Shown: positions 1-31,020 of the stretch, piece after piece
Layout of the letters: the number at the start of each line of letters is the position of its first letter
How positions within the stretch are numbered: position 1 is the stretch's first letter
Origin: a virus
IMG/VR virus record: IMGVR_UViG_3300047557_000172
Span: 1 to 31,020 of that record
DNA: 31,020 nucleotides
Direction: 5' to 3' (one strand)
Notes under the pieces: generated by a model
Database searches by the model: none
What the model saw: the letters and a program-made list of their open reading frames with translations, nothing else
What the model was told of the DNA's origin: nothing
Position numbers and translations under genes: made by a program

Positions 1-1697
1 ACTTCACCAAGCTTGTACAAATTCACCATCGCCTGCTTAATCATGTCTGCTGATGACCCTTGAATCACTGCATTCATGGCTTTGTGCACGAAGTATCGTT
101 TCAAAGGCAAGCCATACTTTTCCTCAGCCAAGTCCTTACGCAGCGGAATCAGTCCTGGGCTGTACTTAGGTGGCCCAAACAACTGAAACCGTCTACGACG
201 GCCTAGCAGCGTCTTTACGTATCCGCGGTTTGTGGCGATCCGTGTGCACTCCTCACCCAATGCCTTGATAAATGGCACGTTCTGGTGATACTGCTCGTAG
301 ACCTTCTTTGCTTCTGCAGGAGCCAGTCCTAGCTGACTTGCTGCCTTAGCTGCTCCCATACCGTAGGCCAAACCTAGATTCAGGGTCTTGGCGTTTTTAC
401 GCGTGATGCCCGCCATGTCCGCCACCAATTGATGGTAGTCCGTATTCGGGTTGTCAACATATCTCGTACGAGCTGTGTCAGACCCAGGAAAACCGCGCAA
501 ATAGGCATAGTGAACCGTGACACGCGGCTCCTGCTGCGAATAGTCGAAGACTCCCCATTGGCAACCATCTTCAGGTATGAAGATACTTCGTATAAGAGGA
601 GCCAGTACCGGATCTCTCGCTGGCACCTGTTGCATGTTCGGATTAGCCGACGCAAAACGCCCTGACCGTGTACCGCCTTTGTCATTTCTTAACTGTCTCC
701 ATTCTGGGTAGATCCGCCCGTTATTTTCCATCTGAATGATCTTCGAGTCGATAAATACTCCGCCAGCCCGATCAAGCTTACGGGCTTTAGAAACTAAGGA
801 GAAAAACTCATGATCAGCACTTTCAAGAAACTCAGCCGCAAAACTAGCATTCCCCTTTTCAGTCTTTGGGTAATCCAGCTTCAAAGCATCACAGGCTGCC
901 TGTATATCATCACCAGACCAGATGTCTATGGACCTGTCTGCCACCTTCTTCAGCTGCTCCATGATCTGATCTTGCTCGTTAAGTAGCTGCGTCTTAACGC
1001 GCTTAGCAAGGTCAATGTCAACACGAACGCCCTTCTGACGCATGGCAACTAGCACATCAATGATCTGACTCTCAAGCAAAAACAGGTCCCATAGCTTTTC
1101 GTCTTTTAGCAGCACCTCTTGTTGCGCAAAGATTCTGATGGGTAGATCAGCGTCCTTGCGGCCGTAATGCGCCACTTCAGCAGCATGCAGCCGCCAGATG
1201 TTGCCTTTAATTTCAGACGGTTTGATGCCCCTACGAATGCCCGCTTCAATCATTTGAGCTTCGTCTTTATGTTCGCCTAGGTAGTACTCAGCGAGCGCGT
1301 CTAGCTTGTACGTAATGCGATCCTCGTCAAGCAATGGCTCAGCTACTTGTACGTCGTACTTGAGACCACCAAGCTTCACGTTTTCAGTAAGCAGCCACTC
1401 CATGTCGTATGGAAGGTTTGCACCGACCTTTGGGATGTCGGTCTTCATCTGATCACGCAGCCAGTCAAAGACATTTTGCGGATTCAGGTTGCCGCCAGCC
1501 TCATGACGCACTGGGTAGTACTCAGCGAAGCCGTCATCAGTAGCTACCGAGACGCCAACGATGTAGCCATCGCGACGAACGCCGCCAGGTCCCTTTGTCA
1601 AGAGATTGGGATCTCTGGTTTCGCAGTCGATAGCGATCTTGCCTGCTCTTGTTAGATCAGGAAAGTGCTTCGGCGGTTGATAAGATGATGCGTCCAT
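1..1697 (-). CDS. Family A DNA polymerase with 3'-5' exonuclease (C-terminus cut by window edge)
   Basis: Replicative phage DNA polymerase. I read 565 codons from ATG at 1697, preceded by GGAAG at normal spacing, with no stop before the window edge. The exonuclease domain is N-terminal: motif IAIDCET (D24, E26), a second motif around VGANLPYD, and HYGRKDAD giving the Tyr-x3-Asp of DEDDy exonucleases. Polymerase motif A is FDYSQQEPR with the metal-binding Asp at residue 385. Motif B is RKNAKTLNLGLAYGM (R433, K437, Y445). Motif C (HDE) would lie beyond base 1. The residue equivalent to E. coli Pol I Phe762 is Leu441, a variant reported as common in virioplankton PolA. The gene overlaps the dCMP deaminase gene by 41 bases and closes the nucleotide-metabolism cassette. 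Family assignment is firm. Confidence 0.95.
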   Translation of the reverse strand, partial: MDASSYQPPKHFPDLTRAGKIAIDCETRDPNLLTKGPGGVRRDGYIVGVSVATDDGFAEYYPVRHEAGGNLNPQNVFDWLRDQMKTDIPKVGANLPYDMEWLLTENVKLGGLKYDVQVAEPLLDEDRITYKLDALAEYYLGEHKDEAQMIEAGIRRGIKPSEIKGNIWRLHAAEVAHYGRKDADLPIRIFAQQEVLLKDEKLWDLFLLESQIIDVLVAMRQKGVRVDIDLAKRVKTQLLNEQDQIMEQLKKVADRSIDIWSGDDIQAACDALKLDYPKTEKGNASFAAEFLESADHEFFSLVSKARKLDRAGGVFIDSKIIQMENNGRIYPEWRQLRNDKGGTRSGRFASANPNMQQVPARDPVLAPLIRSIFIPEDGCQWGVFDYSQQEPRVTVHYAYLRGFPGSDTARTRYVDNPNTDYHQLVADMAGITRKNAKTLNLGLAYGMGAAKAASQLGLAPAEAKKVYEQYHQNVPFIKALGEECTRIATNRGYVKTLLGRRRRFQLFGPPKYSPGLIPLRKDLAEEKYGLPLKRYFVHKAMNAVIQGSSADMIKQAMVNLYKLGE

Positions 1698-2100
1698 TTT
1701 TCTTCCAAAATTCTTTTGCTTCTTGTTGTGGGTACTCTTCGCCGTACACGATGCGTTGGCAGCCGGTGTTCATCAGCAACTTGACGCAAGTCATGCAAGG
1801 CATTGTCGTAACGTAGGCCGTGTGAATCAAGCTTACATCTCGACATTGGAGGAGCGCGTTTTGTTCCGCGTGAATAGCTTCGCAATGATCCAGTCCAGTG
1901 CCTGAAGGATACTGAGCCCCAGGACAAGGTATGTCAATGCAATGAGTCCCACCAGCAGGCACACCGTTATAGCCGGTAGCAAGCACGTGGCCAGCAGCAG
2001 ATACAAGGACACAGCCCACAGACCGCCTTTTACATGTAGCTCGTTGAGATACGAGATCAGCCATTCGCGAGAAGTATTCATCTTTGCTTAACCTTTCCAT
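1657..2100 (-). CDS. Deoxycytidylate (dCMP) deaminase
   Basis: A 147-aa zinc-dependent deaminase converting dCMP to dUMP, the precursor of dTMP. The zinc/catalytic motif HAEQNA (H77, E79) and PCMTC (C102, C105) are intact, and the TGYNGVPAG stretch is typical of dCMP deaminases. I chose ATG at 2100: it overlaps the upstream gene's end by only 13 bases and has GGAAGAG upstream. An in-frame ATG at 2154 would add 18 untypical residues and a 67-base overlap. The 3' end overlaps the polymerase start. In context it feeds either thymidylate synthesis or, with the unusual neighbouring thymidylate-synthase-family enzyme, balances dCMP use. Family is firm; the flow of substrate in infected cells is inference. 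Confidence 0.94.
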   Translation of the reverse strand: MERLSKDEYFSRMADLVSQRATCKRRSVGCVLVSAAGHVLATGYNGVPAGGTHCIDIPCPGAQYPSGTGLDHCEAIHAEQNALLQCRDVSLIHTAYVTTMPCMTCVKLLMNTGCQRIVYGEEYPQQEAKEFWKKNGRIILSTAEALS

Positions 2101-2882
2101 GATTGCAGCTCTTCCATAAAACCGGTAATAGGTTGACCATCTGCTACGCACCACAAATGCCTTACAAGGTGGTCATAGCTTGGAAAGTCGTCCATGTTCA
2201 AAGGTTTGATGTCGCCAAGGATCGCACCGTCTTGGCACTTCTCGGCTCCTTCGTAATTGGTTTCATAGAGATGCTGACTTGCAGCGTAGAAGTGAAGTGT
2301 GCCAGGAGTGACGTTGACGCCCTTTTGACGTAGCAGCAAGCAGACGCCGTAGCTTAGCATGCTGAAGTTAAACCAGTCATAAGGAACACCTAGCCAAACA
2401 TCAGAAGATCTCATATTCATGAAGCAATGCAGCTTGCCGCCACGAATCATGAACTGACAGCTAACAGTGCAAGGAATGTCTTTTGATGCCCGTGGATTAG
2501 ATCTCCAAATGGTAATGACGGCTTGGCGTGAATCTGAATCTGATGTCAATGCTTGCAGCACGTGACCTAACTGATCACGGATACGTGGACCATAGGCACC
2601 AAAAAACAAGAGGCCGTCATCACTGAAATTCTTGATCGCCTTGCTGTATGGGCTGATCGTCTCAACACGGTTGTCGCCACTCATGATCCAAGCAGCTTCT
2701 GCTGCCATGAACCGGTAGCCGAGCCGGCGCTCTGCAATCGTGATGACGGGCTGCGTCATGTCAATCATTGTCTTGACACCAAGCAGCTCCTTGGTCTTTT
2801 GCCCTCGTGGGCTGGTCTCATGACCATGTGTCGTGACAAGGTGCAATAGGCCTTGCCAATTCATGTTAGTGGTGTTTGGCAT
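2088..2882 (-). CDS. Thymidylate-synthase-family enzyme, predicted dCMP hydroxymethylase (or dCMP methylase)
   Basis: A 264-aa protein of the ThyA fold. The catalytic Cys is C138 in DIPCTVSCQF, followed by RSSDVWLG (R158, D161, G165). The dUMP-selecting residue of E. coli ThyA, Asn177, lies 31 residues after the catalytic Cys146 and 11 after Arg166; here the same spacings lead to Asp169 in GVPYDWFNF. Asp at this place is the known hallmark of T4-type dCMP hydroxymethylase, and N177D ThyA variants turn to dCMP, so the likely substrate is dCMP rather than dUMP. The stretch GAYGPRIRDQL around residues 95-105 also departs from bacterial ThyA. Start ATG at 2882 has AGGAG 8 bases upstream and lies inside the kinase gene's end. 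Ordinary thymidylate synthase remains the alternative. Confidence 0.9.
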   Translation of the reverse strand: MPNTTNMNWQGLLHLVTTHGHETSPRGQKTKELLGVKTMIDMTQPVITIAERRLGYRFMAAEAAWIMSGDNRVETISPYSKAIKNFSDDGLLFFGAYGPRIRDQLGHVLQALTSDSDSRQAVITIWRSNPRASKDIPCTVSCQFMIRGGKLHCFMNMRSSDVWLGVPYDWFNFSMLSYGVCLLLRQKGVNVTPGTLHFYAASQHLYETNYEGAEKCQDGAILGDIKPLNMDDFPSYDHLVRHLWCVADGQPITGFMEELQSWKG

Positions 2883-3870
2883 TCAGGGTCTCCTTTAATT
2901 CGTTGATGAACTCATCACGCTTCTGAAAACGTTTTGCGTAAGACGGATGCATGATCTTCTTAGCTTTCTTGAGGCTGTAGTAGCTCAAAGTATCCGCAGC
3001 GTTTGCGCCAAGTGCAACGACATTCATGTATGGCTTGATGCGTAAGCAGTCATTGATGTACAAGCCGCCAGCAGCAGAGTTTGCATTCACATAGACTGCA
3101 CGAGTCTCGTCAAACAAGATGTCATGCAAGCAAGAAGCAAAGAATTCACTGCTGTTGCCGAAGTCATACCAAGGCCATTCAATTGCTCTGAACTTGCTGT
3201 TTGTTGCATCGCCAACGATGATGGTATCAGCATCACCAAGGTGACCAGCAAAGTTAGTGTGTCGTAACGACAAAGCTTCAGGTAACTGGGTGAACATGCG
3301 ATGCTGCAATGTGCTATAGACAATGTCGCAGAAGGTATTTAGATCTTGACCTTCAACGTCAAAGCGATAAGGCAGCACATCATTGCGATGACGCATACCA
3401 TGCACAGACAATTGCTGCACGTAGTCACGGTCGTGGCCAGTGAAGCCGCCATCGAATAGCTGGTCATACCTGACACGAACAGCGTCGACGTCGTCGTACA
3501 TCTCTTCGCGTTCTGTCTTTAGCTTTTCAAAGCGTTCTTTGTGACCATCAGGCGATTGCGTGATGATGTAGAGACCAGCAAAGCGACGAACAATGCGATC
3601 AATAGTCCTGCCCATGTGAGGCCAAGGACTACCACCACGATACACGTCAGCATAGATGGCTTCACTCATCCAAAGGCGATCGATGACAACTAGCTTGTGA
3701 CGAGCCAGCTTCAATGCGTAATGCAGCGAAGCAGTGTGATACAGGGGCATCTTGTTTTTCCACCTGTATGTGTTGTGCAAGTAGTGTCCATCGAAGCGCT
3801 TGCAGATAGCTTCGGCAAGAGTAGTCTTACCTGTTCCATCGCAGCCATCAATGACAATTAAACCCTTCAT
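2866..3870 (-). CDS. P-loop nucleotide kinase fused to a uracil-DNA-glycosylase-like domain
   Basis: A 334-aa two-domain protein. Residues 1 to about 190 are a thymidylate-kinase-like P-loop domain: Walker A GCDGTGKTT at 9-17, and VVIDRLWMSEAIYADVYRGG at 61-80, the DR and RG pattern of dNMP kinases. Residues about 205-325 look like the uracil-DNA-glycosylase superfamily: IIVGDATN at 217-224 (where families 4/5 have GEAPG), VVALGANAADTL at 284-295, and MHPSYAKRF at 307-315 (the HPS motif). The Asp or Asn that activates water in true glycosylases is not obvious, so activity may differ. ATG at 3870 overlaps the upstream stop as ATGA. It probably phosphorylates the product of the ThyA-family neighbour. 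Kinase call firm; glycosylase-like call moderate, from motif order only. Confidence 0.78.
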   Translation of the reverse strand: MKGLIVIDGCDGTGKTTLAEAICKRFDGHYLHNTYRWKNKMPLYHTASLHYALKLARHKLVVIDRLWMSEAIYADVYRGGSPWPHMGRTIDRIVRRFAGLYIITQSPDGHKERFEKLKTEREEMYDDVDAVRVRYDQLFDGGFTGHDRDYVQQLSVHGMRHRNDVLPYRFDVEGQDLNTFCDIVYSTLQHRMFTQLPEALSLRHTNFAGHLGDADTIIVGDATNSKFRAIEWPWYDFGNSSEFFASCLHDILFDETRAVYVNANSAAGGLYINDCLRIKPYMNVVALGANAADTLSYYSLKKAKKIMHPSYAKRFQKRDEFINELKETLNAKHH

Positions 3871-10665: not shown

Positions 10666-13600
10666 TCCTTAGACTCCCTGTTGAGGCGTTCGATAATGGC
10701 GTCGACGTCCTCCTCAGGGGCTTCTTCCTCGGTTTCCTTAGGAAGCTTCTCGGATTCGGGCAGAACTCGGCCGGTCGTTCCTGCAATTCCTTGCAGACGT
10801 TTAGCAGTGCGTTCCTTATCTTGTACAAACTTCTGGCTGCTTCTTTCGAGGCGGCTCAGAGTATCATCAATCTCTTGTGGCGTTGCTGACTTCAGCATCT
10901 TAGCGATTTCGCCTGCGCTCTGTTCATCAAGTGTCGTTCTTGCTTGCAAGTATTTCAAGACGCGGCCAACCACAGAACCTGGGGTTCCCATGGCTACGTC
11001 AACGGCTTCACCTGCAATGTCGATCACGCCGCTGCCAGACTTAAGGTCCTTGACTGCTTCTGCCTTAGGCTGGGTACGGCTGCCACGAACCACTTCTTGA
11101 GCATTCCTAAACAGCTCGGCTTCACGCTTGAGAGCCGCTTCGAAGATCTCATATTCTTGAGGATTCTCAAAGAGGGCTTCAAGACGTTTACGAGTTGCCG
11201 GGGCTCCAATAACACGCTGGGCAGCGTTGATCTGCTGAGGAGCATCCTGAATCTTAGACAAGATCGACTGAGCAGCTCCTGTACGAAGAGCGTCACGTTC
11301 GGCTTCAGACATGCCAGAGACAATCTTCTTAGCCTGGTCAGGCAACGTCTTAGGTGACAGATACTCTTCACGGCCAAGACGGAGGGCGTCCAAGACTTCC
11401 ATGTCGCCAGCATACTTAGCACGGGCTGTTGCATACTCGGGCACGTTCTCGTCAATGACACTGACAAATGCTCGTTTGAGATCTTTGAGGGCATTGGCTT
11501 CTGCCTTAGACATGCCTTCGCCTTTGTAGCCCTTGTCAATGATTGCATCGATACCGCGCTTGATGTAGTCCAAGGTCCGCACATCGGGGATCTTGCCAAC
11601 CTTGATCATCTCACCTGCTTCGTCTAGGTCGTAGATGTCTTTCAAGATGAAGCGGCTTGGATCTTCGCCACGGAGTTCGGCTGCACGTGCTTCCTTACCA
11701 GCAATGTTCTGAGCTTCTTTGAAGGCTCTCTTGAAGGTATCGTCTTCGAGTACCTTGAGCAGGCGGGTATCGTCCACAGAACCGTGGGCATAGGCTGCAT
11801 CATAGAGGTTGCTTGCATTGGCTCTTAGTTTGCCGACCAAGCTGTCCTCGCTGGCTACGTAGTTCTTGCCCTTGGCCAGGTCTTGAACAACACGCTGACC
11901 AATAACGTCACGGCCTTCTTCAATTCGTTCTTCCAAGGCTCCACCAAGAATCTTGCGGCCTTTACCAGGTACTGTAACCACGGCTTCACCAAGAGTTTTA
12001 GTCGATGGAGTAACGTCCATGAGCATCGGATTGACCCCCATGGCGCGGTCTTTTTCAAGTTTGATACGAGCAGACACCGGATCGATCTCGTCACGGGCCA
12101 TGGCTTCAAGCACCTTATTGGTGGCTCGTTCTTCAACGGCACCAGGTGACGGGGCAATCTTGTTCTTGACTGCTTTGGCGCCTGCACCAACACCCTGAGC
12201 TGTTTTAGCGATCACAGGGCCGGCGACTGCAGAAGTCAAACCACCCTGAAGGGCTCCTGATCCGCGCTCACCTTCGGTTGCGGTTCCTGCACCAGCGACT
12301 GCTCCCTGAACGCCAGCGGTTCCTGCCATACGAGCCGTTGGTCCTTTCAGAACCTTAGGCAAGACAGATGACAGACGTTGAGCAGCTTGAGCTGTTCTTG
12401 TGGCTCCTACAGCGGTTGCTGCTTGACCGCCAGGGACAAATGCGGCTGCTACGCTAGGAACGGCACCTGATACGATTTCAGTGCCTAGAGCGATCATCGG
12501 GTTCTTTTCTACGAAGCGCTCATAAGCTTCACGCTCTTCACGCAGCACATCTTCATAAGGACGGCCTTCCATCTTAGCTCTGACACGAGCAATTGCTTCG
12601 TCACCGAAACCAAAACCAAGGCCTTGGCCGACAGCACGCCCGATATTCGCTAGGCTAACTTCGCCGCCGTTGGCCATCTTGATGAGACCGCCTTCAGCAT
12701 TTTCATCGGCCTCGTCACCAGACACAGACTTGCGTGAATAGGCTCCACTAGAGATCTCACCAAGACGTTTTTGATTATCTGCGATCCTGCGAGCAGCTGC
12801 CTTCTGGGCACGTTCCCAAATAGCTTTACGAGTCGCTGCTGGTTTATTGATAGAACCTTGAACGTCGATCAAGATCTTACGTTCGCCTTCAGTTGGTGCT
12901 GCACCGAATATCGCTTTTAATTGGGTCAGTGCGGTACCAAGCACAATGTTCTCAAGATCAGCGGTTGCCGTTTGTGCTTCAGACTGGCGGACACCAGGAA
13001 TGACTGATCCTACAGACTCACGAATACCTGCTGTCTTGCCTTCGTAAGCTACATCGTTGAGCTTCAGCGCTTGACCAAATGCGGTCACAACTTCTCTACC
13101 TGCACTAATCTTGTCTTGCAACTCGTCTTTGAGTTTGATCTCAGCAGGAGACAGCTTAACAGACGTGCCTTCCTTGACAATGGTCTGAACGCGGTTATTG
13201 AATTCAGGGGTGCCAGGTTTGTAGCCTTCGTCTGCTGCAATCTTACCTGCAGGAGATTGCGGCTTGCCACTCACGCCCTCTGCACCACCGGTTTCTGGCT
13301 TAATGTAAGTCAGGCGCTTGATACGAGCTTCTGCGATGCGCTTGGCATCAGGAGTTGCCTTAGGGTCGTTGATGACTTCAGTCAGTTTCTCGACTTCAGT
13401 CAAGCGATCTTTAGGCACAGATTTAGCAAGAGTCGACAGAGCAGACACCTTGGTCTTGAGACCTTCGCCCTTCTGGTCGATGGCCGCCAAGTCATACTTC
13501 ATCTGCAGATCTTCAAGTTCTGCTTTGGCCTTGCGCTTCTGACCAAGTACGTCAGCGGCAACATCAGTCACGCCACTCAGGCCTTCAAAGAAGCTACCTG

Positions 13601-17486: not shown

Positions 17487-18608
17487 TCAAATCCTCTTAT
17501 CAAACAGTGCTGCGCTGAACACGTTGCCCATGCCTGCACTCAAGCTCATCACTATGCCATTAGGAGCTTCAACCGGATGCGAGAGGAACACATGATCCTC
17601 TTCTGTCCTATTCAAGATCTCAGGCACAGTGCCCAAATTCAAATCATTGAACAGCAAGAGGGTCTCTAAAAGTCCGCTCGCTCCCATCGTATGGCCGATT
17701 CGTTGCTTATACGATGTCGCTACAAACCCACTCAGGTTCTGTTCTAAACAAGCCTTTTCTGCAGCATTGTTAGACTTAGTCCCAGTACCATGAGTCTTAA
17801 CGATTTTAATTTGTTCTGGACGAATTTGACAAACTTCTATGGCACCTTTTATGGCTCTTGTAAAACCCTGGCCATCTTCTCGTTGACCGATGGCATTGCT
17901 CAGGATTTCAGTGGCCGTATAAGCCCCTAGAAGTTCGGCTTGTGGCTGTAGTCCAGACTTTTCCATAGCCTTTTCAGACTCAAATACGGCAAAGGCAGCG
18001 CCCTGGCCAATATAGAACCCAAAATTCTTAGAATCGAAGGCCGAGGGTACCACCTGGTGCTCCGCAGCCATCTTTTCAGTTAGTGTTGCTCCAGCTTCAC
18101 CGAAGAACTGGAGGGTCATATTGTTCACCTGGTCCTCAACGGCTAAGACAATGACTCGATCGAAGCCATAGAACCTGATCAGAGTCTGGACATCCATCAA
18201 CACCTTGAGGCTAGAGGTGCACGCGGTTGCATCCGTGGCTGTGTGATCTATTTCCCCGCACTGCGCAGCAATACGGCCGGCATAGATCTGGGTCAGAGAC
18301 AACGGAAGGACCTTATAGTTGAAGGTCATACTGTTCTCTTTGCCCATTTTGCGGCCTTCATTGGCAAAGTTACTATTGCCAGAGGCCAAAAGGAACGCGG
18401 TTTTGCCAGTCTGTGTCTGGCGAATCAGGTTCAAGAGATCTGGATCTAGGACCTTTTCTGCTATCACATGAGCAGGGTGAAACAGGCCTGTCTTGACCCT
18501 TGCGTAAGAGTCAGGGAACCAGTGGACTTTTTGTGGGAAATTGTGATCTTCGTAGACTTGCGTCTCTGTCGTGCAGACGTGACGGCTTTCGGTCAAGAAG
18601 ATTCTCAT
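17487..18608 (-). CDS. Beta-ketoacyl-ACP synthase (FabF/KAS II-like)
   Basis: A 373-aa thiolase-fold condensing enzyme that would join an acyl group to malonyl-ACP. All three catalytic residues are in place: Cys130 in DATACTSSL, His273 in KTHGTGTKSNN and His306 in KQRIGHTMGASG, with the conserved Lys301 five residues before His306. It is shorter than typical FabF (about 410), and the C-terminal gating loop is GMGN (in SAGMGNVFSAALF) instead of the usual GFGG, and the Asp after HGTGT is Asn, so it is a divergent member. The ATG at 18608 overlaps the ACP stop as ATGA, implying translational coupling; a GTG nine bases earlier is possible. Flanked by virion genes on both sides. Family is firm; pathway is unknown. 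Confidence 0.93.
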   Translation of the reverse strand: MRIFLTESRHVCTTETQVYEDHNFPQKVHWFPDSYARVKTGLFHPAHVIAEKVLDPDLLNLIRQTQTGKTAFLLASGNSNFANEGRKMGKENSMTFNYKVLPLSLTQIYAGRIAAQCGEIDHTATDATACTSSLKVLMDVQTLIRFYGFDRVIVLAVEDQVNNMTLQFFGEAGATLTEKMAAEHQVVPSAFDSKNFGFYIGQGAAFAVFESEKAMEKSGLQPQAELLGAYTATEILSNAIGQREDGQGFTRAIKGAIEVCQIRPEQIKIVKTHGTGTKSNNAAEKACLEQNLSGFVATSYKQRIGHTMGASGLLETLLLFNDLNLGTVPEILNRTEEDHVFLSHPVEAPNGIVMSLSAGMGNVFSAALFDKRI

Positions 18609-18895
18609 TGGATCCACCCAAATGCTTGTTCAAAAGATTCAGGTTGACGTCTACCATTAGCGACTAAGAAGTCAAAAGCTTCTTGTGGAGTTTTGGCTTG
18701 CATCTCCTTGCTCTTTTCATCTTCAACGTCGTAGATCTCGCACAAGTAAACTGTGCACATCAGCATGTCAAGGCTATCTAGACCAACATCGGTAAAGACT
18801 ACATCCATGCTGTCAATCGGTAAAAGCTCGTTGTGAAACGGCTTTGCTTTTTTAGCTACTTCGTGCAGCAGCTTGAGAAAATCTTGTTCTGTCAT
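18605..18895 (-). CDS. Acyl carrier protein
   Basis: A 96-aa acidic helical protein with the phosphopantetheine attachment motif DVGLDSLDMLM; Ser41 would carry the 4'-phosphopantetheine arm. Helix III, with LCEIYDVEDEKSKEM, and the following TPQEAFDFLV match the ACP fold. A 15-residue C-terminal tail, ending in FGWIQ, extends past the usual ACP end. No phosphopantetheinyl transferase or malonyl transferase is seen in the window, so host enzymes would have to charge it. Its ATG directly follows the stop of the 75-aa gene, and its own stop overlaps the synthase start, so the two are surely made together. Specific partner-substrate is unknown. Confidence 0.93.
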   Translation of the reverse strand: MTEQDFLKLLHEVAKKAKPFHNELLPIDSMDVVFTDVGLDSLDMLMCTVYLCEIYDVEDEKSKEMQAKTPQEAFDFLVANGRRQPESFEQAFGWIQ

Positions 18896-26780: not shown

Positions 26781-27413
26781 TTAGCCGAGCAGATAACCTG
26801 AGAAGTTACCCTGTAAAAAGGTACCATTTGCTTGAAAAGATGCAGTATCTCCTGCAGCCATATTCATAACAATAGACCCCGTTACAAAATTACGAAATGT
26901 TCCGTCCTGAGTGCGCCCCGGTGAGCCCCATATATCTAAAAAATACATTGTGCCGTTTCTAAGAATTCTTGCTGATACAGAGTCTGCATCTGAGCTACCA
27001 TCGTTTCCTCTATAGCTAAATGAAAACAAATAATTGCCTGCTACAGGGGCCGTAAATACACCTGTAGTCGTATTCAAATGACCGCCTGTATTAAAATAAG
27101 GAGTTAAAGAACCAATCGTAGTAAAGGTTCCTCCAATAACTACGCTGCTTGTGCGCACAGCACTAAACCCCGGTTGACGTGGAGCAGTCACCTGACCAGC
27201 GCCGTCAACACGCATACTTTCCGCTGGAGTTGAACCAGTCCTAAGCACTATGGAACCCCCCGAAATAGTGGGACCAATAAACGCTTGGTCATATATTGAG
27301 GCTGTTGGGCCAGTTGGATTGGTGCCGTTTCCAATAAAATTGTAAGTAGTAGTTGTAAAAGCACTTCCGCTGTTAGCGGTAATACCCGAACTTCCGTTAA
27401 TTGTTACAGGCAT
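26781..27413 (-). CDS. Tail fibre with C1q-like C-terminal domain
   Basis: A 210-aa protein. Residues 1-80 form a Ser/Thr/Gly-rich stalk (TINGSSGITANSGS). From about residue 82 it follows the C1q/TNF-like jelly roll: FSAVRTSSVVIGG, LTPYFNTGGHLNTTTGVFTAPVAGNYLFSFSYRG, SARILRNGTMYF, AAGDTASFQANG and a final SGYLLG strand. In phages such domains sit at fibre tips and bind host surfaces as trimers. ATG at 27413 has AAGGAGA upstream. Assignment rests on strand order and the key Gly/Pro/Phe positions. Confidence 0.8.
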   Translation of the reverse strand: MPVTINGSSGITANSGSAFTTTTYNFIGNGTNPTGPTASIYDQAFIGPTISGGSIVLRTGSTPAESMRVDGAGQVTAPRQPGFSAVRTSSVVIGGTFTTIGSLTPYFNTGGHLNTTTGVFTAPVAGNYLFSFSYRGNDGSSDADSVSARILRNGTMYFLDIWGSPGRTQDGTFRNFVTGSIVMNMAAGDTASFQANGTFLQGNFSGYLLG

Positions 27414-27423
27414 TGTTCTCTCC

Positions 27424-28566
27424 TTAAATCACAGTCCAGACCGAGCCGTCAGACACAGTCACGGTTATTCCATCAGCCACGGTCACAGGGCCAGACGACA
27501 TGGCGTTTGATCCTGAGGGCACGGTATAGTTTGCGCTTACAGTCTTTGAATTCACAAAGATACCATTGCCTGCCACAATCTCGCTTGACTGGAATTCACC
27601 TGTGCTTGGCTTATAAAGCAATTTCGCGTTGCTAGTATAAACCGTCGCGGCAGTTCCTGACGTAGCATTTGCAAGCAACGGATAAATATTGCTTGACGTA
27701 CTGGTGTCGTTGACGATGGCTGCACCACCTACAGAAGCCCAAGCCGTGCCGTTATAGCCTTCAAACTCGTTGGTCTGCGTATTGAAACGCAGCATGCCGC
27801 TGACAGGTGATCCTGGGCGAGCAGCCGTGTTACCCTTACTGATCGTCAAGGCGCCAGTCGAACTGAATGTCGAGTCTGCAGTAGCAGTCAAAGCTCCTGT
27901 AATTGCTAGCGTGCTGCCGTTCCAAGTCAGATTAGACGAGTCGTTGAGGTTGCCGCCAGTGCCTGCAAAAATTACACGGCCAGAAGTCAACGAGGAATCG
28001 GTAATGTCGTTGGCAGTTAAAGTCGTGCCGTTAAAAGTCAAGTTTGCAGAATCAGACAGAAGTCCGCCAGAGCCTGCAAAAGTCACACGACCAGATGTTA
28101 GTCCACCGACCGTGGCGTTACCGGCCAAGAAAATGCTGCGTGGACGGGTCGCTCCAGAGGCCCCAATGTCATACGTATTGTCAGTGAAAATCAAGTTTGA
28201 CGTGATCGTGCTATTGACTGTCAGCGTATCAGCAGGAGAATCACCGATTGTGATGTTGCCGTCAAACTGAATGCCGCCGGTCACCTGCAACTTCGAAATG
28301 ACCACAGACCCAGTGCCGTTAGGCGTCAGGTTGATGTTGCCATTCGTGTTCGTAGAGACGATCGTATTGCCATTGAAGTAGAGGTTATCGACCTGAAGCT
28401 CAGTGGGATTTGTTCCCATCTCGACGACAGTGCCAGAACCATTCTTGGCATACATGCGTTTGTCTGCTACGTTCAGGGCTAGTTCGGCGCCTCCCGCAGC
28501 ATTGGTAAGATCACCAGCTGCCGGAACAGCAGAGGTGTTCTTATTCTTTAGAAGAATAGTGGTCAT
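27424..28566 (-). CDS. Repeat-containing tail fibre
   Basis: A 380-aa fibre protein. The N-terminus (MTTILLKNKNTSAVPAAGDL, GGAELALNVADKRMYAKNGSG) is a known phage fibre opening. Residues 155-183 and 192-220 are two copies of an LTSGRV-FAG-GG-L-DS-NLT-NG-TL unit. RPGSPVSGMLRFNTQTNEFEGYNGTAW (250-276) is another widespread fibre motif. It ends in a strand-rich VTVADGITVTVSDGSVWTVI. The ATG shares a base with the upstream TAA (TAATG), with GGAGG 10 bases before. Likely forms a trimeric shaft. Confidence 0.8.
   Translation of the reverse strand: MTTILLKNKNTSAVPAAGDLTNAAGGAELALNVADKRMYAKNGSGTVVEMGTNPTELQVDNLYFNGNTIVSTNTNGNINLTPNGTGSVVISKLQVTGGIQFDGNITIGDSPADTLTVNSTITSNLIFTDNTYDIGASGATRPRSIFLAGNATVGGLTSGRVTFAGSGGLLSDSANLTFNGTTLTANDITDSSLTSGRVIFAGTGGNLNDSSNLTWNGSTLAITGALTATADSTFSSTGALTISKGNTAARPGSPVSGMLRFNTQTNEFEGYNGTAWASVGGAAIVNDTSTSSNIYPLLANATSGTAATVYTSNAKLLYKPSTGEFQSSEIVAGNGIFVNSKTVSANYTVPSGSNAMSSGPVTVADGITVTVSDGSVWTVI
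27907..28104 (-). repeat. Tandem protein repeat in the 380-aa fibre
   Basis: Two units of about 29 residues share LTSGRV, FAG, DS and NLT with a spacer of about 8 residues. The shared word GTCGTGTAA-type codons differ at third positions, so the copies are not recent. A building-block repeat of the fibre shaft. Confidence 0.6.
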
Positions 28567-30629
28567 TAGTATGTACCTCCAGAGATCGTGTCAGTCCAGG
28601 TAGGTGAACCAGTACCACCTGAGATTAAAAATTCGCCTGCAACACCAGCGGCTGAGAATGAGGTTGCTCCCACACTAGACTGGTAAGGCACGGCTCCTGC
28701 CACTCCTCCGGCAAGGTTCGTTGCACTTGTTGCACTTACGGCGTTGGTTGCGTTGCCGACCGTGATGCTTGCAGGATCAGTCCAAGCAGGAGCAGATCCA
28801 GAAGACGTCAAGATACGGTTCGCTGCCCCAATGGTCAAGCGGTCTAGTGTTGTGGACGTGTTGGCATACAACAGGTCGCCAGCTGCATAGCTAGAGATGC
28901 CTGTGCCGCCGTAGATCGCCGCAATCGTGCTAGCAGTCCATGTGCCTGCTGTCAGGGTACCTACGCCAGTGATGCCTGTGTAAGAACCAGAGATGTAAGC
29001 AGAGCCCACGGTGCCAGACGTAATCTGGTTGCCGTTGATGGCGATCGGGGTATTGGTAACTGTGGTCAACTGACCTTGAGCATTGACTGCAAATACAGGC
29101 ACAGATGAAGCTGACCCGTAGGTGCTTGCAGAAACCCCTGTATTGGTAATGCTGAAGGTTGTATTGGTCAGAGTCAATCCGGTGCCCGCAGAGTACACCT
29201 GGGCCGCCGAAACTTGAGCAAACGTGATGGCAGTCGTGCCAAACGTAATCACACCAACCGTGTTGCAGACGTAGGTCTCGCCAGCTCCTGTATTGCCGCT
29301 AGACACAAAGAATGCATCGCCGTTACCAAGACCGTTAGGATCTTTGATAGCGTAAGAATCAGCATCAGTGGCTCGTGTTAACACCCATGGAGTCGATCCA
29401 TCACCAACAGTCGTGACGGTATAAACACCATTCTCAAACTGGTTAGTCTGGTTGTAAATCAGGATGCGGTCATTGACAGAAGCCACAATACCGTCAGGAG
29501 TAAAGGCTCCCAAAGTACCCGCATTTGTCAATGTAGCACCAACACCCGCCGTGCCGTTGTTGTAGGTTGCGTTAAGGTTTCCTGTGCTGTTAGGCACCTC
29601 ATACTTGACTGGCGTATGGTAGGTGATACCAGAAGAAACTAGGGTGTCGACGTACTGCTTAGTGGCCAGCTGCAAGGCAGACACAGGATCTTGAGTAACC
29701 GCAACGGACGTCAAACCGCCAAGCGTCAATGAAGAACCGCCCAACGAAATGGCTGTCGTGCCGATCGTGACAGATGAATTTGTCAAGGCTGCATTAGGAA
29801 TGTTCTGCAGCGTATTAGTCCCACCATCAATCGTCTTGTTTGTCAGCGTTTGAGTACCAGACAAGGTAGCTACGGTCGAATCAATTGCGATCGTAACCGC
29901 AGAGGATCCGTTGAAGCTTGTGCCTTGCAAGCCAGTTCCAATGGTTAGTGCATTGGTTGTGTTTGCCGTGATGGTACCAGAAGCTCCAAGAGCCACCGTG
30001 ACACCGTTAAACGTCGTCGACGAGTTAGTCAACGAAGAATTGCCGATGTTACTGAGCGTGTTGTTGCTGCCGCTGATTGTCTTGTTTGTCAGCGTCTGGC
30101 TGCCACTGTTTGTCGTGACAGAGCTGTCGATGCTGATCGTCTTAGCGGTCAAACCGTCAAACGTAGAGCCACTGTTGTACTGCAGACCGGTACCTGCAGT
30201 CAATGCTGCATCGGTTCCTGCTGTGATCGTACCAGTACCTCCAAGAGCAACGTTGACGCCGTTGAAGGTAACCGAGCTGAAATCAAGCGACGCATTCGGA
30301 ATAGCCGTAAAGGTATTCAAGGCTCCTGACATGGACTTGCCTGTCAAGGTAGACGGAATATCGGCGTTCACCAATAAGCGGAAAGACGTAGGTGCCGAAC
30401 CGCCAGCTGTAGGTCCTGCATAAACAAAGTTTGCAGGTTGATTTGATACGATCAGAGCAGATCCCCATGAAGGAGCGCCTGATCCATTTGAAACTAATAC
30501 TTGACCGATTGCACCTTGCACGGTTTGCAAGAAGCCGTTCGTGCCGTCGTTGTACCAGACAGCCCCTGGAGTCAAGTTCAAGACTTGCTCGCCAGTACCG
30601 CCGTTGGCCAATGACAAGAGACCGGTCAC
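28566..30629 (-). CDS. Large tail fibre, C-terminal part (after in-frame TAG)
   Basis: A 687-codon reading frame beginning with GTG directly after an in-frame TAG at 30630-30632. Its first residues, TGLLSLANGGTGEQVL, complete the upstream HTHPAIDLADSN in the way seen in intact phage fibres, so it reads as the C-terminal part of one protein. Residues 112-196 and 197-278 are two long repeats, with a partial third. GITYHTPVKYEV and NDRILIYNQTNQFENGVYTVT (about 350-410) form a recurrent fibre domain, and GSASSVPVFAVNAQGQL repeats a phrase found upstream of the TAG. It ends in ISGGTY. The GTG has no good ribosome site, so readthrough, a recoded TAG, or a real break are the options. Confidence 0.78.
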   Translation of the reverse strand: MTGLLSLANGGTGEQVLNLTPGAVWYNDGTNGFLQTVQGAIGQVLVSNGSGAPSWGSALIVSNQPANFVYAGPTAGGSAPTSFRLLVNADIPSTLTGKSMSGALNTFTAIPNASLDFSSVTFNGVNVALGGTGTITAGTDAALTAGTGLQYNSGSTFDGLTAKTISIDSSVTTNSGSQTLTNKTISGSNNTLSNIGNSSLTNSSTTFNGVTVALGASGTITANTTNALTIGTGLQGTSFNGSSAVTIAIDSTVATLSGTQTLTNKTIDGGTNTLQNIPNAALTNSSVTIGTTAISLGGSSLTLGGLTSVAVTQDPVSALQLATKQYVDTLVSSGITYHTPVKYEVPNSTGNLNATYNNGTAGVGATLTNAGTLGAFTPDGIVASVNDRILIYNQTNQFENGVYTVTTVGDGSTPWVLTRATDADSYAIKDPNGLGNGDAFFVSSGNTGAGETYVCNTVGVITFGTTAITFAQVSAAQVYSAGTGLTLTNTTFSITNTGVSASTYGSASSVPVFAVNAQGQLTTVTNTPIAINGNQITSGTVGSAYISGSYTGITGVGTLTAGTWTASTIAAIYGGTGISSYAAGDLLYANTSTTLDRLTIGAANRILTSSGSAPAWTDPASITVGNATNAVSATSATNLAGGVAGAVPYQSSVGATSFSAAGVAGEFLISGGTGSPTWTDTISGGTY
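29715..30296 (-). repeat. Long repeats in the fibre shaft
   Basis: Two units of about 82-85 residues plus a partial third share FNGV-VALG-GTITA, GTGLQ, SGTQTLTNKTI and NTL-NI in order. The DNA of the two full copies is similar but clearly diverged. Such repeats set fibre length and could support recombination between fibre genes. Confidence 0.7.
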
Positions 30630-30632
30630 CTA
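30630..30632 (-). other. In-frame TAG in the tail-fibre gene
   Basis: The reading frame is open on both sides: at least 129 codons before it to the window edge, and 687 after. The context is DSN-TAG-VTG; intact relatives that I know of typically read Gln here (a CAG-to-TAG single change). No other supported gene in the window contains an in-frame TAG or ends in TAG. Confidence 0.85.
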
Positions 30633-31020
30633 ATTTGAATCTGCCAGATCAATGGCAGGGTGAGTATGGTCTGAACGCGAAACGGTATTTGCTACGCCAG
30701 GACTTGCCACTCCAACCGGGTTAGGATTAGAGACGCCAAAGTCAACAGACAGGGTACGGTTAGCTTGTAAATTGCCGCCACCAGTAAGACCAGGGCCTGC
30801 AATAATCTGACGTGTATCTGGTACAAAGCCACTCAAACTAATGGCAGCCGTTCCCATGCTAGTGATCTGACCTTGTGCATTGACAGTCACGATAGGTATT
30901 TCAGATGCTGATCCATAGGTACCAGCAACGACACCCGTAGGAGCAATCTTGTCAGTCGTAACACCAGCACTTGCAATGCTCAGGGTACGATCTTGGCTTA
31001 AATTGCCACCACCTTGAAGA
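30630..31020 (-). CDS. Large tail fibre, N-terminal part (runs off window; ends at TAG)
   Basis: A frame open from the window edge to TAG at 30630. It reads LQGGGNLSQDRTLSIASAG, then TYGSASEIPIVTVNAQGQI, LTGGGNLQANRTLSVDFG and SRSDHTHPAIDLADSN. The two GGGNL-RTLS units are tandem fibre repeats, and GSASxxPxxxVNAQGQ recurs in the part after the TAG, supporting one original protein. The true start lies outside the window; a GTG at 30890 is internal. It is the most upstream piece of the fibre array seen here. Confidence 0.78.
   Translation of the reverse strand, partial: LQGGGNLSQDRTLSIASAGVTTDKIAPTGVVAGTYGSASEIPIVTVNAQGQITSMGTAAISLSGFVPDTRQIIAGPGLTGGGNLQANRTLSVDFGVSNPNPVGVASPGVANTVSRSDHTHPAIDLADSN

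Follow-up and report, generated by a model that had tools for sequence, protein, structure and literature searches.

An in-frame TAG private to one tailed-phage fibre gene, very probably a fibre-truncating allele or a consensus error near the contig end

A private stop codon in a fibre gene

The tail-fibre gene at the end of a phage contig is split by a single in-frame TAG at 30630..30632 on the minus strand, and none of the relatives spanning this site carries a stop there. The TAG is very probably a private nonsense codon in one tailed-phage fibre gene, either a fibre-truncating allele or a consensus error near the contig end. The somewhat probable reading of this codon is a real mutation that arose recently in the population sampled, and a consensus error close to the contig end is a possible but less probable one. 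The single stop, the otherwise intact frame and the presence of a sense codon in all relatives point to a private nonsense allele.

Organization of the fibre gene

The window, that is the whole stretch of DNA which was analysed, comprises a linear virus record with a length of 31020 b. The phage contig is incomplete and probably represents a fragment. The fibre gene is the last minus-strand gene of the window. Its 5' end is situated beyond the contig edge, and the TAG lies about 0.4 kb from the contig end. The minus strand around the stop reads ...DHTHPAIDLADSN-TAG-VTGLLSLANGGTG..., where the TAG occupies 30632..30630. Upstream of it, the N-terminal part of the fibre (30633..31019, minus strand) forms an open frame of 129 codons with PHROG tail and tail-fibre matches and 86% identity to the nearest relative, L001. 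Downstream, the remaining gene (28566..30629, minus strand) is an open frame of 687 codons which runs up to the natural TAA, ending at 28566.

L001 is an IMG/VR contig of 9475 b and possesses a single fibre gene of 880 codons. A tblastn search against it gave one alignment through the stop, covering window residues 6-817 with 89% identity. As this alignment is unbroken across the TAG, the two parts belong to a single gene, rather than to two separate genes or a chimera. The two parts are also joined in L012 and L013. Judged against L001, about 60 N-terminal residues of the fibre are missing from the window, and the TAG, window residue 130, takes the place of L001 residue 190. Direct reading and the L001 alignment thus bear out an earlier note on this DNA, which had described a single in-frame TAG in an otherwise intact tail-fibre gene. 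The note had also seen matching repeats on both sides of the TAG, and the upstream module was indeed found again downstream, at 28944-29162, with 48% identity.

Many relatives align through the TAG up to about window residue 345, where the match ends. The TAG is thus positioned within the conserved N-terminal region and not at a natural joint or divergence point. A structure predicted for residues 1-354 of L001 was of low confidence, with a mean pLDDT of 56, and the TAG site fell in a segment below 50.

The TAG site in relatives

Relatives were gathered with the upstream piece, the downstream piece, the region alignment, a genome collection, the neighbouring gene and a virion gene. Rows were dropped when the alignment fell short of 10 residues before or 15 residues after the site, or when the letters HP were absent. 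The TAG site is spanned by 122 of the 331 fetched loci, which represent fewer contigs as some contigs were fetched repeatedly. After merging of identical contexts, 72 distinct local sequences were obtained, all with a sense codon at the site: Glu in 42, Gln in 29 and Gly in one (L176, whose alignment is weak and unsure). None of the 122 site-spanning loci has a stop at this codon or in the 300 codons that follow; six of them run off the contig before that distance is covered. The smaller set available before the neighbour- and virion-gene searches likewise showed no stop (101 of 171 loci spanning the site, 71 distinct sequences). The TAG is therefore private to the window sequence. Two weak alignments which contain stops, L154 and L155, show 27% identity over window residues 508-808.

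No in-frame stop was found inside the other listed minus-strand genes of the window. Together with the sense codons of all site-spanning relatives, this marks the TAG as more than a chance stop. Same-species copies of the site were sought by an exact pattern in which the first base of the stop codon was free to vary, and none turned up. The relatives recovered with the fibre, its neighbour and a virion protein as queries had at most about 90% protein identity across the query, a level to be read with the possible absence of records very near the window from the search set. The genome collection contributed two relatives, one from a bin of Methylomonas and a weak one from a bin of Planctomycetota, and annotated phage records gave partial matches only.

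The window was placed on a tree together with 71 relatives, 72 rows in total. Its partner there is L001, and it falls in a supported group of eight rows, the other seven of which all possess Glu. The position of the window in a Glu clade makes Glu an expected residue at least as much as Gln, and the Gln expected in the earlier note was not upheld by these neighbours or by the residue counts. At least eight switches between Glu and Gln were found on the tree, so Gln is still possible as the expected residue. The almost exclusive occurrence of Glu or Gln among the 72 distinct sequences, together with these switches, points to a constrained contact of the fibre at this position.

Constraint and divergence across the TAG

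Against L001, the dN/dS of the 129 upstream codons was 0.104 and that of the 687 downstream codons 0.102. Equal constraint on both sides of the TAG indicates that the reading frame was interrupted recently or that the TAG is an error. Since most of the divergence between the window and L001 may predate the stop, these values are compatible with a young interruption, with one that is not real and with one that translation tolerates, and show no more than that. Decay of the fibre gene is not visible. The fallback of the earlier note, a population variant or a sequencing error, is supported. The 687 intact downstream codons would equally fit a gene which is still translated in full, and this is a point against a private nonsense codon.

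Amino-acid changes in the upstream piece were in excess in the window. With L012 as outgroup, 20 such changes fell to the window and 3 to L001 (P 0.006), with 20 synonymous changes in each. With L097 as outgroup, the amino-acid changes were 14 and 6 (P 0.09) and the synonymous changes 14 and 19, respectively. This excess, a small number, is explained neither by a brand-new stop in a normal gene nor by an error. Identity to L001 is lowest near the TAG (0.76 for residues 101-125 and 0.71 for residues 126-150), and the same two segments are also variable among eight relatives, which give 0.63 and 0.65 between one another. Mosaic origin or locally relaxed constraint is possible for this segment. 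When the segment was scanned for a recombination origin in 14 pieces of 150 nt, the closest sequence was L001 for 12 of them and L012 for the other two, with no clear donor.

Expected consequence of the stop

In an ordinary host, translation would end at the TAG. The truncated product would comprise about the first 190 residues and would be devoid of the distal shaft and tip. Such a loss-of-function allele, if real, can persist where some of the hosts can be infected without the fibre. This has been reported for the lateral fibres of a T5-like phage, DT571/2, of whose clones grown on a permissive strain about 30% had become unable to infect a fibre-dependent host (PMC4728585). Real fibre-loss alleles are ordinary on this precedent. 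If the window allele is real, a fibre-truncated variant was abundant enough to assemble from an environmental sample, which hints that some hosts in that sample can be infected without it. If it is an error, it is a warning against annotating split fibre genes close to contig ends.

Readthrough of the TAG

The earlier note had proposed readthrough or an amber-suppressing host as a source of short and long fibres and thereby of varied host binding. We consider this improbable, be the readthrough leaky or programmed. It fits the intact and constrained downstream frame and the Gln found at the site in 29 of the 72 distinct relatives, and many bacterial in-frame stops have been argued to be compatible with continued function (PMC7918605). 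Against it, the stop is private to one sequence and is not placed where the relatives start to diverge, and neither a suppressor tRNA, in the window or in 16 related records, nor an unusual downstream structure was found.

A suppressor tRNA, which the earlier note had proposed to look for, was found neither in the window nor in the related records. ARAGORN detected no tRNA and Rfam no RNA family in the window, which is a fragment, and no amber-suppressor tRNA was present in the 16 related records, which range from 21 to 58 kb. Only one of these 16 has a tRNA, and it reads Pro.

Programmed readthrough is accompanied by a stimulating structure downstream of the stop, though not in every case. 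The 101 bases examined around and after the TAG showed no unusual fold compared with shuffled sequences (z -0.43). In a further test for structure, an 80-base piece fell within the lowest 8% of the pieces of the gene, a weak signal. The case described in PMC3091744 is one of frameshifting and is not relevant to the fibre TAG.

A narrower form of the same idea is that the natural host reads through the TAG often enough to be of use, through a natural suppressor or a leaky context, as a bet on host surface variation with mixed truncated and full-length fibres in this lineage only. This is less probable still, and a lineage-specific readthrough system is favoured by nothing found.

Translation restart and genetic code

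A fibre made naturally of two proteins, with an N-terminal piece up to the TAG and a C-terminal piece restarting at GTG, is very unlikely. A GTG codon does follow immediately 3' of the TAG, and two-protein fibres exist in T5-like phages (PMC4728585). Against this, every site-spanning relative has one unbroken frame, and the GTG is devoid of a ribosome site: the pairing before it is -2.6 kcal/mol, compared with a median of -6.4 for the gene starts of the window (25 starts, of which 24 are sound and one, 26763, is slightly misplaced and read GTC) and -2.2 for random positions. Restart at this GTG was therefore rejected. Among the 42 in-frame start codons 3' of the TAG, the strongest pairing is found 646 codons in, near the end of the gene.

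Reassignment of TAG to Gln throughout the phage (code 15) has a negligible probability, as only the fibre among the listed minus-strand window genes gains a TAG under this code and the relatives use TAG as a terminator. In the relatives, TAG terminates 40 of the 786 called ORFs, and the closer clade has 16 such ends among 207 ORFs. Both totals include contigs fetched more than once. Several of these TAG-ended ORFs have the next stop just one or two codons on. Two points fit code 15: Gln is, with Glu, usual at the site, and TAG ends none of the 27 terminated frames of the window; these frames were hand-picked and include one doubtful ORF (1833-2081, within 1657-2154). At the 5% share seen in relatives, such an absence has a chance probability of 0.24, and it was rejected as a code signal because it is not significant. 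Re-annotation of code-15 phages is described as giving longer genes and greatly increased coding capacity (PMC11210395), and this was not the case when code 15 was applied to the window.

Other genes of the window

Several other genes of the window were recorded as separate observations. The gene at 17487-18895 (minus strand) is beta-ketoacyl synthase-like, with N and C ketoacyl-synt domains in Pfam and NCBIfam matches all below cut-off. The small ORF directly before it has no Pfam match and resembles an acyl carrier protein by its DSL motif. This pair is located among virion genes, and the relative L261 possesses two ORFs of equal lengths and order (96 and 376 aa, 11820-13228).

In the region 3-3870 (minus strand), the DNA polymerase has as its best NCBIfam match the aminoadenine-incorporating DpoZ, below cut-off (292 vs 500 bits). 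Near it are a thymidylate synthase-like gene, below cut-off, and a thymidylate kinase-like gene, just below cut-off. A modified-base genome is possible.

In the tail region, two different tail-type proteins, with gene ends at 28566 and 20763 (minus strand), both terminate in -GGTY, and at both positions the codons GGxGGTACATACT also provide the next gene with its ribosome-binding region. A C1q-like domain (Pfam) is present in a small protein which is encoded at 26781-27413 (minus strand) within the tail-gene cluster.

Comparison with known systems

A private nonsense codon in the fibre gene was compared with the systems in which similar stops or losses are known. It resembles the spontaneous fibre-loss variants of DT571/2, in which a small change disables the fibre gene and the rest of the genome is seemingly intact; unlike those variants, whose loss was shown by plating, the window allele is known from its sequence and could be an error (PMC4728585). 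The study of short-lived in-frame stops in bacteria centres on stops shared by orthologues (PMC7918605), whereas the window TAG is common to no fetched relative. Like code-15 phages, the window has an in-frame TAG in a structural gene; unlike them, it has one such TAG only, a suppressor tRNA was not found, and its relatives terminate genes at TAG. It differs from programmed readthrough in that the stop is not conserved, being present in none of the site-spanning loci.
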